Below, one piece after another: positions 59,292-64,000 of a stretch of DNA of 64,000 bases; position 1 is the stretch's first letter, and each line of letters starts with the position of its first letter. The stretch is taken from contig NZ_LLYW01000004.1 of the NCBI RefSeq assembly GCF_001484195.1, positions 1 through 64,000 of the forward strand, in the 5' to 3' direction. The notes under the pieces are model-generated. The model saw only the letters and a list, made by a program, of their open reading frames with translations, was not told the origin of the DNA and made no database searches. This stretch comes from Thermococcus celericrescens. Lineage in GTDB: Archaea; Methanobacteriota_B; Thermococci; Thermococcales; Thermococcaceae. The position numbers and the translations under genes are program-made.

Positions 59292-59495
59292 ACACCTTTC
59301 TCCGCACCGCCCTAAAGACCTGCTCCTGTCACGGCAGTAGTTGCCCTTTTCGTAAATAGCAGGTCTGCCACGAGTGTGATGGTTACCTCTTCAATGGGTA
59401 TTGCCCCTTTTATGAAGGGGGCTTATACAGGACTCAAGGAATCGCCTTAATTGTGAAAATTTTTGATCCATAATTTTTCACTTTGTGAAGGACAG
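59292..59495. other. Intergenic stretch with two hairpins
   Basis: About 200 bases without a gene. AGACCTGCT (59316-59324) pairs perfectly with AGCAGGTCT (59358-59366) across a 33-base loop that contains TTGCCCTTTTCG. A second hairpin, GCCCCTTT...AAGGGGGC (59403-59422), contains a similar TTGCCCCTTTT. The two related segments and stems suggest a structured RNA or a decayed repeat element. No tRNA, C/D-box or H/ACA signature was recognised. Confidence 0.4.
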
Positions 59496-59960
59496 ATGAA
59501 AGGAAACTGCAAAGGTCACGGCAAGGGCATGAAAGGCCACGGAATGCACGGGATGGAAGAAGCGGAGGAGTCCAAGAGGGAGTACGCCTACGTCCGGGAG
59601 GTCGAGACCGGCTTTGACGAGACCGTTGAGAAGGTCAAGGAAGAGCTGAAGAAGGAAGGCTTCGGAGTGCTCAGCGAGATAAGAGTTGATAGGCTCTTTA
59701 AGGAGAAGCTTGACCTCGACATGGAGCCCTACGTAATCCTCGGGGCGTGCAATCCGAACTACTCAAGCGAGCTGATAGGCATAGATCTCAACAGCGGCGC
59801 CTTCCTACCGTGCAACCTGATGGTCTATGTCAAGGAGGGAAAGACCTACGTGAGTTTACTGCCCCCGACGGTGGCCATGGGCGTTACAGGGAACGGCGAG
59901 CTCCTTGAAGTTGCCGGGAAGGTTGAGGAGATACTGAAGGGTGTAGTTGATAGGGTTTGA
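59496..59960 (+). CDS. DUF302 family protein with His/Met/Lys-rich N-terminus
   Basis: A 154-residue protein. The first 25 residues are Gly/His/Lys/Met-rich (GHGKGMKGHGMHGM), a possible metal-binding extension. The rest is a DUF302 domain: DMEPYVILGACNPNY and GAFLPCNLMVY correspond to the two core segments. ATG 59496 has AAGGA close in front. It is the longest of the three DUF302 proteins in the window. It stands alone, with a possible promoter near 59450-59475. Confidence 0.82.
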   Translation: MKGNCKGHGKGMKGHGMHGMEEAEESKREYAYVREVETGFDETVEKVKEELKKEGFGVLSEIRVDRLFKEKLDLDMEPYVILGACNPNYSSELIGIDLNSGAFLPCNLMVYVKEGKTYVSLLPPTVAMGVTGNGELLEVAGKVEEILKGVVDRV

Positions 59961-60102
59961 TTTTCTTCGTGGGTTTTCTCCTATTCTTTCACACTTTACA
60001 AAATGGAAAATTGACCATATCATGTTTTTCTCCAAAATGCCGAAAACTTTATATGCTCCCAATGACCAATACTATTCAAAGGGAAGTGCAGAGGTGAATA
60101 CC

Positions 60103-60621
60103 GTGACGCATCTGTTCGTGGTGGTTTATGACAGCGATGCAGAGCGAAAGCGCGTTGAATACCTAATTGACAAGTGGTCGAACCGCGCCAGGGTATCCAA
60201 GCTCAAGGGCATCTCCTTTATGGTTGAGGCCCCCGATGTGTCCAAGCTCATGGAGGAACTCCTCTCGAAGCTCGACCCGCCGACGGAGGGCAAAGTTAGG
60301 GTGTACAGAGTCGAACCGGAGGACATCGGCTCAAAGGTGAGTCCCAAAGTAGTTGAAATACGCCACACGAGCAGCGAAGAGCCGGCAATCGTGGCCAAGC
60401 TCCTCAGGTACGTCCTCTCCAAGTTCGGCGCATATTACGTTTCCGGCGAGGGTAGCGTATCAAGATACAGGGCCTACACGAAGAAAGGCAGGCTGGAGAT
60501 GACGGTGTCCGTTGAAGAGGAAGATAACGGAACAGCCGTTAACATTTCCATCGAAGGATATGGCAGCGCGGTGGAGGATATGGCGAAAAAACTCAGAAGG
60601 GAGCTTTCCCTGCTCCTGTGA
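60103..60621 (+). CDS. Two-domain protein with Cas2/VapD-like N-terminal half, unknown function
   Basis: A 172-residue protein. Residues about 1-80 read like a ferredoxin-fold Cas2/VapD domain: HLFVVVYDSDAERKRVEYL, then ARVSKLKGISFMVEA, then a helix and GKVRVYRVEPED. The hydrophobic strand ending VYD with a charged helix after it is the Cas2 hallmark, but the remaining ligand residues cannot be judged by eye. Residues about 85-172 form a separate alpha/beta domain. GTG 60103 follows GAGGTGAAT, and a TATA box (CTTTATATGC) lies at 60048-60057. It heads the operon 60103-63666, and there is no CRISPR array or cas gene in the window. Confidence 0.6.
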   Translation: MTHLFVVVYDSDAERKRVEYLIDKWSNRARVSKLKGISFMVEAPDVSKLMEELLSKLDPPTEGKVRVYRVEPEDIGSKVSPKVVEIRHTSSEEPAIVAKLLRYVLSKFGAYYVSGEGSVSRYRAYTKKGRLEMTVSVEEEDNGTAVNISIEGYGSAVEDMAKKLRRELSLLL

Positions 60622-60630
60622 GGTGATACC

Positions 60631-62454
60631 ATGGTGGTCTTCAACGAAGGAAATCCCGACTGCGTGAGAAAGCTCCTAAGGCCTGCGGAGAGAGTCATCA
60701 GGCAGGGGCGAGATATCCGGGTGGAGAGCTTTGATACGAGAAAGGAGCTCTGGGAGCGGGTTCTTGACTCGTATTCACGCTATCTGGAGGGAGAATGCGG
60801 CGATTTCCTGGACGACGTTGATACAGCCTTCCGGGCGAAATTCGAGGCGGCCCTGGCGGTTCTCGCGTGGAGCTTCTGGAGGAAGGGGGAGGAGTTCTCC
60901 CCAGCGAGCGAGCGCTTTTCGGAGCACGAAATAGGGCTGATAGACGAGATACTGAAGTACAATGTTTTCGAAATAACAACGAAGGAGGACATCCTCGGAA
61001 AGCTCTACCGCAGGGATGAGGAGGTTCTCCAGCTGCTCAAAACCTACTACCTCGGCATGGACAGGTGGATAGAGGAGCAGCTCGAAGACCCGGAGATAAA
61101 GCTCTCCCTCAGGTACCACCTCAAGAGAACCTGGAGAAGATACCGCGAGAAGATTGATGCGGCAATAAACGAGGCGGGCAAATACGGCTGGTTCCGAACG
61201 CTCATGGAGGAGTGGGAGAGGGAAAAGGCCGAGGAAGTCGAGGCCGTGAGGGAGACCTACGAGACCCGGGTTAGAGAGCTGAAGAAGAGAATGGCCGAGA
61301 TGGTCGAGTTCTTCGAAGAGGAGCGCAGAAAGCTTGAGGAGGAGCTCTCCACATCGAACCTGGCCGAGATAGAGAGGCTCCGCAGGGAGAAGGAGGAGCT
61401 GATCAGAAAGTTTGAGCGTGAGAAGGAGGAGCTGACTAAAAGGTTGCTCGAACTCAAGGACGAGGAGCTGAGGAAAAAACTGGAGGAAGAGCTTTCGAGG
61501 GCAAGGGAAGAGGCTCTGCGCGAGGCGAAGCTTCTCGAAGAAAGGATACGGAGAAAGGAGCTTGAGCTCAGGCAGAAGGAGATGGAACTCAGGAGGAGGG
61601 AAATCGAGGTCTCACAGAGGGACGAGGAACTTAGGAGGAAGATAGAGGAAGTGCTCGCCATCTCGGGCAAGGTGGAGAAGGGCAGCAGGCTCGTTGTGAG
61701 GGAAGAAGCGAGGATTCAGGAGCTCAACTTCATCGGCAGGGTGAAGAGCAAGTTTAGTGGGGAGATAGCCCTCCTTGGAAAGAGGTACTCCGTCGAGAGT
61801 GCTGAGGAGAAGAAGGGGAGCGATGTTTTGAGCTTCAGGGGAAAGCTCGACGAGACGGCCCTCTGGAACCTGCCGGAGAACAGATACATGGAGATTCGCC
61901 TGAAGGAGAAGAAGCTCCTCGGAAGAAAGGAGAGGCTCCTCATAAAGGCGATGTACCTCACCCGTGTGGAGAGGCTCGCGGAGCTGGGCATGGATACGGA
62001 CCCGCTGACCCTGGCGGAGCTGAACGTGCATCTCGTTGGAGCGAGAGAATCTCCCAGCGAGGAAAGGATTGTGCTCGTGGTGGCCTCACCCCTCGGCTTT
62101 GAGGAGCGCATCAGGAGGTACGTCTCCTCCGAGGACTTCCACAGGAACTTCTACTCTGAGAACGTCTCGCTCATACTCCTCGACACCGAGACGGGAGAGG
62201 TGGTCCACAACCCGAACGACGCCTACGCCAGGGCGCTCGCTCCACTGGTGAGCCTTGAGCTGGACGAGGAGGTCTACGCCAAGGTGAGGGATTGTGTGAG
62301 GAGAAAGCTTGAGGGCAGGGACTACCTCCCCCTCAGCGAGTGCCTCGAATGCGGGGACGAGGAGCACGTTAGGAGGGCCTTCTATGAAATCGGCCGGGAA
62401 GGCCATGTGGTGAAATACATAGACGGGTTTGGGCTCGTGCTGATAAGGAAGTGA
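60631..62454 (+). CDS. Large coiled-coil protein of an ESCRT-III-like gene cluster
   Basis: A 607-residue protein in three parts: an N-terminal helical domain (about 1-190), a very long charged coiled coil (about 190-345, heptad-like runs of Glu, Arg, Lys and Leu) and a C-terminal alpha/beta domain (about 350-607) with ASPLGFEERIRRYVSS and SLILLDTETGEVVHNP. No Walker, nuclease or membrane motif is visible, and I do not recognise a family. ATG 60631 follows AGGTGAT and begins 9 bases after the upstream gene. It is followed by two ESCRT-III/PspA-like proteins, so it may be their partner or regulator. Confidence 0.7.
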   Translation: MVVFNEGNPDCVRKLLRPAERVIRQGRDIRVESFDTRKELWERVLDSYSRYLEGECGDFLDDVDTAFRAKFEAALAVLAWSFWRKGEEFSPASERFSEHEIGLIDEILKYNVFEITTKEDILGKLYRRDEEVLQLLKTYYLGMDRWIEEQLEDPEIKLSLRYHLKRTWRRYREKIDAAINEAGKYGWFRTLMEEWEREKAEEVEAVRETYETRVRELKKRMAEMVEFFEEERRKLEEELSTSNLAEIERLRREKEELIRKFEREKEELTKRLLELKDEELRKKLEEELSRAREEALREAKLLEERIRRKELELRQKEMELRRREIEVSQRDEELRRKIEEVLAISGKVEKGSRLVVREEARIQELNFIGRVKSKFSGEIALLGKRYSVESAEEKKGSDVLSFRGKLDETALWNLPENRYMEIRLKEKKLLGRKERLLIKAMYLTRVERLAELGMDTDPLTLAELNVHLVGARESPSEERIVLVVASPLGFEERIRRYVSSEDFHRNFYSENVSLILLDTETGEVVHNPNDAYARALAPLVSLELDEEVYAKVRDCVRRKLEGRDYLPLSECLECGDEEHVRRAFYEIGREGHVVKYIDGFGLVLIRK

Positions 62455-62464
62455 GGTGATTGTG

Positions 62465-63061
62465 ATGGGGATACTCGACAGGTTTAGGAAGAACCCGATT
62501 GAAAAGCTCTCCCTCAGGGAGCTTCAGGAGGAGGAAATACGTCTGAGGAACAGGCTTGAGAGGGCGAAGAAGGAAATCGAGCGCATCGAGAAGAAAAAGA
62601 AGGGGCTCTTCCAGGAGGGCATCGGGGCGGACGTCCTCAAGAAGAAGATGCTGGCTCAAGAGATCAAGAGCCTCGACATGGAGCAGAAGCTCAAGCTGAG
62701 GGACTTCACCACCGCCCAGAAGCAGTACACCTTCGTCAAGAACCTGATAGTGGTCAAAAAGTACGAGAAGGAGCTGAGGAAGATAGGCCTCTGGGACAAG
62801 CTCTCCAAGGTCGAGCCGGAGCAGCTTGAGAGCGTGCTCGTCAAGGTGAGCCTCGACGGCAAGGAGTTCGATGAGATGGTTGAGGGTCTCAACAGGGTCT
62901 TTGAGATGGACGTGGCAGAGTTTGAGGCGACGGAAGATCAGACCGAGAGGGAACTCATGGAGGCCTGGGCCAAGGTCGAGACAGGGGAGGCAGACGTTGA
63001 GGAGGTATCCTCCGAGATAGCCTCGCCCAAGATTGAGAAGGATGCGGAGGAGGAGCTGTGA
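62465..63061 (+). CDS. ESCRT-III/PspA-like helical protein, first copy
   Basis: A 198-residue, almost wholly helical protein. A short amphipathic N-terminus MGILDRFRKNP is followed by a basic helix pair (ELQEEEIRLRNRL, ERIEKKKKGLF), a long middle helix and an acidic C-terminal tail. Order, charge pattern and length match Snf7/CHMP and PspA/Vipp1 proteins. The 201-residue protein encoded next is its paralogue. ATG 62465 is chosen because AGGTGAT ends four bases upstream. Membrane remodelling by polymerisation is inferred from the family resemblance only. Confidence 0.62.
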   Translation: MGILDRFRKNPIEKLSLRELQEEEIRLRNRLERAKKEIERIEKKKKGLFQEGIGADVLKKKMLAQEIKSLDMEQKLKLRDFTTAQKQYTFVKNLIVVKKYEKELRKIGLWDKLSKVEPEQLESVLVKVSLDGKEFDEMVEGLNRVFEMDVAEFEATEDQTERELMEAWAKVETGEADVEEVSSEIASPKIEKDAEEEL

Positions 63062-63666
63062 TGGGCCTCCTTTCAAGGTTTTTTGGGAAGAAGAACCCGC
63101 TCGACATACCGATTGACAAGCTCAGGGAGAACCAGGTTAAGCTCGACATGCAGATAGGGAAGATTGAGAACGAGATAGCTGAGATAGACAGGGAAATAGC
63201 CCTCTTCTTCGAGAGGGCCAAGAACGCCAGAAGCAAGAGCGAGGAACTCACGATAGCGACGAAGATAAAAACCCTCAACCAGCGCAAGAAGAGCCTCCAG
63301 AACACCCACGCCCAGCTCAACAAACAGCTCATGCTCGTCAGCAACCTGCTGATAATCAAGGAGAACGAGGCCATCCTCAGGGGCACGCCCACGTGGGAGC
63401 TCCTGAGAAAGATGTCCCCCGAGGAGCTGGAGAAGAACCTCGTGAGCATGAGGCTTGATGCCCAGAACCTCAACGAGAACCTGAACACAATGCTCCAGTA
63501 CACCGACCAGGCTTTAGGTACGGGCGTTGAGTTCGAAGAGGACGAGGAGCTCGCTGAGATAATGAAGACGATAGAGGCAGTGAAGGAGGGCGAGCTGGAG
63601 CCGGAGAAGGCCGCCGAGAAAGTGGCGGGGGAGAAGGAGGAGACAGAGGAAGTTGTCACTGAGTGA
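63061..63666 (+). CDS. ESCRT-III/PspA-like helical protein, second copy
   Basis: A 201-residue helical protein with MGLLSRFFGKKNP at the N-terminus, comparable to the amphipathic start of CHMP4/Snf7. It continues with a basic helix pair (KIENEIAEIDREIALFFERA, then a turn and KIKTLNQRKKSLQNTH), a hydrophilic middle and an acidic tail with EDEELAEIMKTIEAVKEGE, reminiscent of the C-terminal part of ESCRT-III. Its ATG overlaps the stop of the first copy (TGATG) after AGGAG. Thermococcales divide with FtsZ and are not known for ESCRT-based division, so the role is open. Confidence 0.65.
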   Translation: MGLLSRFFGKKNPLDIPIDKLRENQVKLDMQIGKIENEIAEIDREIALFFERAKNARSKSEELTIATKIKTLNQRKKSLQNTHAQLNKQLMLVSNLLIIKENEAILRGTPTWELLRKMSPEELEKNLVSMRLDAQNLNENLNTMLQYTDQALGTGVEFEEDEELAEIMKTIEAVKEGELEPEKAAEKVAGEKEETEEVVTE

Positions 63667-63801: not shown

Positions 63802-64000
63802 GTGCACATGGGCCATATGTTCGATGACGACATCCTGGAAGGGATAGTCAAGCTCTTCATAGTTATAGTGCTAATCTCCGTCATCTTCGGGAGGGCCGCG
63901 GGGTTTATAATTTTCATCGTGGTAGCCATGTGGATTGGACACCTGATAAAGCACCTGCTCAAAGACGTTTCGAAGTCCAGTAAAAGGTACAAGTACCGCT
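63802..64000 (+). CDS. Small membrane protein (partial, runs off the right edge)
   Basis: From GTG 63802 (GGAGGG six bases upstream) the frame is open to the window end, 66 codons. It encodes a short polar start (HMGHMFDDDI) and two adjacent hydrophobic helices (VKLFIVIVLISVIFG and GFIIFIVVAMWIG), followed by a basic segment (HLLKDVSKSSKRYKYR). No family is recognised. It might belong functionally to the operon at 60103-63666, but it has its own promoter-like sequence. Confidence 0.65.
   Translation, partial: MHMGHMFDDDILEGIVKLFIVIVLISVIFGRAAGFIIFIVVAMWIGHLIKHLLKDVSKSSKRYKYR

Follow-up and report, generated by a model that had tools for sequence, protein, structure and literature searches.

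A compact ESCRT-type gene cassette beside metal-resistance genes in Thermococcus celericrescens

The closest described relatives of the locus reported here are the endosomal sorting complex required for transport (ESCRT) systems of euryarchaea. ESCRT machinery serves cells in constricting and severing membranes. A 2024 survey (Makarova et al., PMC10936438) places Thermococcales in a 'Main' clade of such systems, whose parts, in its account, are Vps4, ESCRT-III, arCOG09748, arCOG08177, membrane kinases and phosphatases. There, arCOG09748 is described as a helical protein with a coiled coil, a globular part and a C-terminal winged helix, and arCOG08177 as an apparently inactivated Cas2-like domain joined to a TATA-binding protein (TBP) fold; vesicle formation and sorting are favoured over division because FtsZ is present. 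A 2021 review (PMC10117752), in contrast, holds that Thermococcales have no ESCRT-III. A preliminary description of the DNA studied here had likewise taken them to be without a credited ESCRT system, a view that the survey's account has made outdated. We analysed a locus at the end of a 64,000-nucleotide stretch of Thermococcus celericrescens, contig NZ_LLYW01000004.1, the whole of which we call the window. As the window is C4:1-64000 of its genome, its numbering runs on past its edge along the same contig.

The locus is a cassette of eight genes, A to H, of which the window holds the first half (Table 1). It resembles the Main clade as surveyed part for part: F corresponds to Vps4, C, D and H to ESCRT-III, E to the kinase and G to the phosphatase, while B and A approximate arCOG09748 and arCOG08177, respectively. 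Its identity as a euryarchaeal ESCRT system of an already published type is well supported. We further consider it highly probable that the cassette is a compact and complete member of the Main clade, working as a kinase- and phosphatase-gated membrane remodeller with vesicles or repair as its output. Several lines of evidence lead to this reading: the match to the survey, the Vps4-type ATPase, the fold of D, the Snf7 match of H, the paralogy of C and D, the co-occurrence of D with Vps4, the gene order, and, against a part in division, the lack of CdvA and the two FtsZ genes. The gene set and its order, the co-occurrence and the folds or family matches are direct observations. The preliminary description had proposed a machine that remodels membranes by means of two ESCRT-III-like paralogues; these observations bear it out through the fold of D, the downstream Vps4-type ATPase and the gene set given in the survey. 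New leads, absent from the survey text consulted, are the plasmid carriage and metal-resistance setting, the empty sites together with a probable deletion relic, and the swapping of kinase N-terminal regions (ectodomains). Our literature search found no report that tests the function of the system in these organisms.

Table 1. Features of the cassette and its surroundings (window numbering, continued along the contig where it passes position 64,000).
Feature	Position	Strand	Size	Description
Promoter of A-B-C-D	60041-60054	+		B recognition element (BRE) CGAAAAC and TATA box TTTATAT, read in the sequence
Shine-Dalgarno of A	60091-60097	+		GAGGTGA, read in the sequence
Gene A	60103-60621	+	172 aa	GTG start; fits the published description of arCOG08177
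Gene B	60631-62454	+	607 aa	agrees with arCOG09748 as described in the survey
Gene C	62465-63061	+	198 aa	ESCRT-III-like paralogue 1
Gene D	63061-63666	+	201 aa	ESCRT-III-like paralogue 2
Gene E	63802-65517 (in the window, 63802-64000)	+	571 aa	membrane-anchored Ser/Thr kinase
Gene F	65514-66701 (past the window end, same contig)			Vps4-type ATPase
Gene G	66677-67435 (past the window end, same contig)			PP2C phosphatase
Gene H	67440-68006 (past the window end, same contig)		188 aa	third ESCRT-III-like protein
DUF302 family gene	59487-59960	+		left flank, outside the system; metal-resistance island
Swapped-kinase loci (other genomes)	L048/L066 (G018), L058/L074 (G034), L061/L073 (G013), L050/L067/L130/L131 (G031)

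Two other described systems share parts of this layout. Crenarchaeal CdvABC has the same ESCRT-III fold (CdvB2 and CdvB) and a Vps4/CdvC-type ATPase; in contrast, the genome carrying our locus lacks CdvA and has FtsZ, a kinase, a phosphatase, A and B are added, and the winged-helix-like domain sits on B rather than on CdvB. PspA and Vipp1 belong to the same wider superfamily and have a helical hairpin layout. However, Vps4 stands here in place of PspF, and no PspA lies over the cut-off in the genome.

The preliminary description had placed four tightly packed genes behind a single TATA box. The open reading frames (ORFs), the BRE/TATA pair and the Shine-Dalgarno sequence confirm this arrangement, with 9 nt between A and B, 10 nt between B and C, and an overlap of 1 nt between C and D. 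The reading frame that starts at 63802, earlier taken for a small membrane protein with two helices, in fact encodes the first 66 residues of the kinase E, which is cut by the window edge.

At least one ESCRT-III protein is present in the cassette by the evidence of a Snf7 match (H), of Foldseek (D) and of paralogy to D (C). The AlphaFold2 (AF2) model of D, built from 25 sequences, has a mean predicted local distance difference test (pLDDT) score of 76.6, with block means of 82-95 across residues 11-120. It contains a short N-terminal helix (residues 3-8), a long α1-α2 hairpin (18-54/59-101) and more helices toward the acidic tail, thereby showing the short first helix and hairpin that are typical of ESCRT-III/Snf7. 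When the model was compared with 350,542 PDB chains using Foldseek, CdvB2 came first and the top six matches were all CdvB2 filaments. The top 50 also include CdvB, human CHMP2A-CHMP3, CHMP3 and Asgard ESCRT-IIIB, and no PspA or Vipp1 structure is found among them. Of the likeness to ESCRT-III and PspA that had been noted earlier, the ESCRT-III part therefore stands, and PspA/Vipp1 as the nearer match does not. The paralogy of C and D, also noted earlier, is upheld by profile-profile comparison (probability 98.6%, E = 7e-16, 184 columns), and C adjoins or sits near D in Thermococcus, in Methanothermococcus and in metagenome-assembled genomes (MAGs) labelled Archaeoglobales. The same comparison between D and H gave a probability of just 31.6%. 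H itself matches Snf7 (E = 2.9e-4), and of 18 H orthologues 16 have Snf7 as their main Pfam match (E = 4.5e-6 at best). Sequence searches of the PDB with D, with C/D and with H returned no usable match, and Pfam, NCBIfam and PADLOC scans of A to D returned chance-level matches only.

The AF2 model of A (mean pLDDT 92.1) runs in the order β-α-β-β-α-β, a ferredoxin-like domain, and then β-α-β4-α, a helix-grip domain. The C-terminal half is like KA1 domains (Chk1 KA1, 5wi2_B, TMt 0.73, root-mean-square deviation 2.3). KA1 domains of eukaryotic kinases bind acidic phospholipids; the likeness in fold suggests that the second domain of A may be in contact with the membrane. According to the model and the structural matches, A thus combines a Cas2-like domain with a TBP/helix-grip domain as arCOG08177 does, an equation that follows the description published in PMC10936438. 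The claim that the leading protein is Cas2-like has fared well, with a ferredoxin-like N-terminal domain in the model and a Cas2-like domain named in the survey. The likeness to Cas2 and VapD is limited to this N-terminal domain. Unlike them, A has no Cas1 neighbour, lacks the usual Cas2 Asp and carries the fused helix-grip domain. Tyr9 is invariant and the residue after it varies between D, E and G, so the usual Asp is lost. We rejected A as a Cas2 of CRISPR adaptation because we saw no Cas1-like neighbour within the locus and the PADLOC Cas2d profile gave a weak match only (residues 5-71, E = 0.04), and we rejected a VapD toxin-antitoxin pair because no partner gene is present. A viral fold library yielded nothing meaningful with A, and a PDB sequence search no usable match.

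B appears to comprise an N-terminal helical domain, a charged coiled coil, a central globular domain and a C-terminal winged-helix-like domain, the last being an H1-S1-H2-H3-S2-S3 pattern read by eye from the alignment over the final 75 residues. Profile searches with this region gave weak helix-turn-helix matches only, and a PDB search with the C-terminus nothing usable. In size, coiled coil and winged-helix-like pattern B agrees with arCOG09748, as compared by the survey's description and not by an arCOG profile. No relative of B was found in a phage collection. Separately, genome G036 encodes a fusion of a D-like protein with a B-like N-terminal domain (L057:9397-11322) beside ABC transporters, a relic that is all we found of the system there.

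The remaining genes complete the set. F contains an AAA domain (E = 1.5e-38) and a Vps4_C domain (E = 1.1e-8; 35.3 bits against a cut-off of 21.3), which makes it a Vps4-family ATPase, and its N-terminus comprises 80 conserved, helix-rich-looking residues for which a PDB search gave no usable match. E matches Pkinase (E = 6.6e-48) and has N-terminal hydrophobic segments or helices, and G matches PP2C_2 (E = 1.1e-15), so that a membrane Ser/Thr kinase and a PP2C phosphatase are both found in the locus.

We examined the distribution of the system in 61 genomes of the same genus, counting a Vps4 as strong at E≤1e-105. D is found in 30 of them, A and B mostly in the same genomes, and strong Vps4 also in 30. 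Both D and Vps4 occur in 28 genomes and neither in 29, with two discordant genomes each way (Fisher p = 9e-13, in a test that treats genomes as independent although they are related). Drafts make up three of the four discordant genomes, and one of the four, G036, has only the relic. The order A-B-C-D is kept in about 30 of the 61 genomes and recurs in Methanothermococcus and in Archaeoglobales-labelled MAGs. One such MAG has A-B-C-D-Vps4, and Methanothermococcus the same order plus one extra gene; MAG labels may be wrong, one 'Archaeoglobus' contig being very near Thermococcus. Across the phylum, B is present in 40 of 115 genomes.

The compact eight-gene form, about 8 kb long with one kinase of 570-589 aa, occurs in nine genomes (L031-L039), including that of the window. 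On one side it borders on a DUF302 gene, on the other on a heavy-metal P-type ATPase. In three genomes with an empty site (G001, G014 and G034) these two genes adjoin, with 58-74 bp between their ORFs. At the same site G031 has only a lone kinase (L129:6470-8206) that is 80% identical to E, and a remnant promoter with a similar TATA segment, which is probably a deletion relic. The empty sites and this relic indicate that the cassette is gained or lost as a unit. G021, which is the nearest relative, matches Thermococcus peptonophilus, in which all eight genes lie on a circular plasmid record of 49,106 bp (NZ_CP014751.1, L132, 17914-25817) with arsB, ArsR, DUF302 and three metal ATPases as neighbours. 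Positions 25338-64000 of the window are broadly collinear with that plasmid; the matching blocks are 73-93% identical. The window's contig also carries every P-type ATPase that we detected in the genome, three in number. Judged from these comparisons, the contig may contain a plasmid-like metal-resistance island, whether integrated or free.

Expanded loci reach up to some 20-40 kb and contain several kinases, receptor-like phosphatases and often a second Vps4. The N-terminal regions of their large kinases match PEGA, beta-propeller, PQQ, LamG-type and TPR families. Among the closely related genomes G018, G034, G013 and G031, identity is 92-99% for A, B, the main Vps4 and H, a figure that leaves aside C and D, which were masked by ORF picking in part of the comparison. 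The kinases that follow the main Vps4 in these genomes range from 488 to 1266 aa in total length. In every pair the last 386-452 residues are 81-90% identical; just upstream of the kinase domain, one or two steps of 40 residues are enough for identity to fall to the chance level. The kinases of expanded loci, as aligned, exchange whole ectodomains around a constant ESCRT core.

Our best guess for the function of the compact cassette is phosphorylation-gated vesicle budding or membrane repair, a scheme in which we infer polymerisation, scission, the targets of phosphorylation and the physiological output. B, whose coiled coil and winged-helix-like end recall the recruitment modules of ESCRT-II and CdvB, would help to place C, D and H at the inner face of the membrane. 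A, probably a dimeric adaptor whose second domain may touch the membrane, would position them together with B. C, D and H would then polymerise to bend and cut the membrane, and F would use ATP to remodel and recycle the resulting filaments. The membrane kinase E would phosphorylate ESCRT parts or cargo and thereby switch assembly on or off, and G would undo this phosphorylation. The output would probably be budding vesicles or mended membrane rather than cell division. Thermococcales are known to produce vesicles, genetic tools exist for them, and an 8-kb cassette that is plasmid-borne in T. peptonophilus, and for which natural presence/absence pairs exist, is small enough for deletion or transfer. 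It makes testable both what a euryarchaeal ESCRT system does beside FtsZ and whether archaea, too, have ESCRT under the control of kinases.

Several observations weigh against this remodelling scheme. The Foldseek values for D are weak (E = 0.06 at best, TM-scores about 0.4), so that the support from structure comes from the consistency across matches. Neither D nor C reaches the Snf7 cut-off of Pfam. The curated threshold is 27.3 bits, against 9.8 for D (a full-length match) and 21.0 for H; however, Sulfolobus acidocaldarius, a control with true CdvB proteins, also stays under it, which makes this cut-off an unfair defining test in archaea. An MIT domain on F was not confirmed: Pfam MIT matched one of 19 members (E = 0.088), and a PDB profile search gave no MIT structure. 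The 2021 review (PMC10117752) cites unpublished work in which disruption of any of three Vps4 homologues of T. kodakarensis left vesicle production unchanged; these homologues may include the Vps4 considered here. Finally, the cassette is missing from about half of the genus and is therefore unlikely to be necessary for basic vesicle formation.

If C, D and H constricted a septum as ESCRT-III proteins do in Sulfolobus, the locus would be a Cdv-type division machine. The nearest solved folds of D, CdvB2 and CdvB, would fit, as would the fact that crenarchaeal cells are divided by ESCRT-III and Vps4. However, a role in cell division is unlikely because the genome has no CdvA and two strong FtsZ genes: PF18822 found no CdvA there while detecting the Sulfolobus control, and two FtsZ genes lie over the cut-off beside a third, weaker relative. 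The absence of the cassette from half of the genus also speaks against division, and Makarova et al. (PMC10936438) reason likewise in their account of the clade; we regard a septum-constricting machine as very improbable. Just as improbable is a system of plain coiled coils, or an envelope-stress system of the PspA/Vipp1 type, with a likeness to ESCRT-III in layout only. Helical, charged proteins with amphipathic N-termini and weak Snf7 matches are what it would predict, yet the 50 best structures for D hold CdvB2, CdvB, CHMP and Asgard ESCRT-III and no PspA or Vipp1, the PspA_IM30 profile has no match over its cut-off in the genome (one partial, sub-threshold match lies away from the locus), and a Vps4-type ATPase is the constant partner.

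The setting of the compact cassette between DUF302 and a heavy-metal P-type ATPase, on the contig that holds all three P-type ATPases detected, and the surroundings of the plasmid copy, with arsB, ArsR and three metal ATPases, invite the idea of a resistance accessory that clears or mends metal-damaged membrane. We consider it improbable, given that G001, G014 and G034 have the same island without the cassette, that the expanded loci examined lie outside such a setting and that hitch-hiking in the island accounts for the linkage equally well. We likewise give little credence to an anti-virus or surface-recognition defence, in which sensor kinases would detect attack on the envelope and ESCRT would drive shedding or sealing. 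It would explain the patchy distribution with gain or loss as a unit, the plasmid-borne copy, and the unrelated ectodomains on kinases whose C-terminal halves are 81-90% identical around an ESCRT core of 92-99%. In contrast, PADLOC gave no credible family match, B has no relative in the phage collection, the neighbours are metal-resistance and not defence genes, and the window's compact form lacks a large ectodomain. None of our tests favours the defence role that the preliminary description had raised as an alternative. A broader proposal, doubtful and offered tentatively although it strikes us as somewhat less remote than these two, is a membrane-scission system gated by receptor kinases whose sensors are swapped like recognition modules. 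Around a constant ESCRT-III/Vps4 core, kinases and receptor-like phosphatases would exchange N-terminal regions, probably extracellular, at a fixed junction before the kinase domain; surface signals, possibly from viruses, competitors or toxic metals, would trigger vesicle shedding or membrane sealing, and the compact form, set in a metal-resistance island and in some cases carried by a plasmid, would be pared down to a single sensor that stays the same.

Three further kinds of gene accompany expanded loci. A protein of 222-225 aa (MGIFSSILPSKEEK...), whose N-terminus is by eye like those of the ESCRT-III-like proteins, is encoded in three of them (L066:3703-4371, L131:7584-8261 and L073:2799-3476). 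A pentapeptide-repeat protein whose C-terminal region has two helices and resembles an ion channel (TVGYGD motif) is found regularly in or beside them, for example at L045:13630-14754. At or near the end of several of them lies a gene for a Stomatin/SPFH-like protein (L131:12006-12974, L074:3998-4960, L076:5048-6007 and L077:6886-7845).

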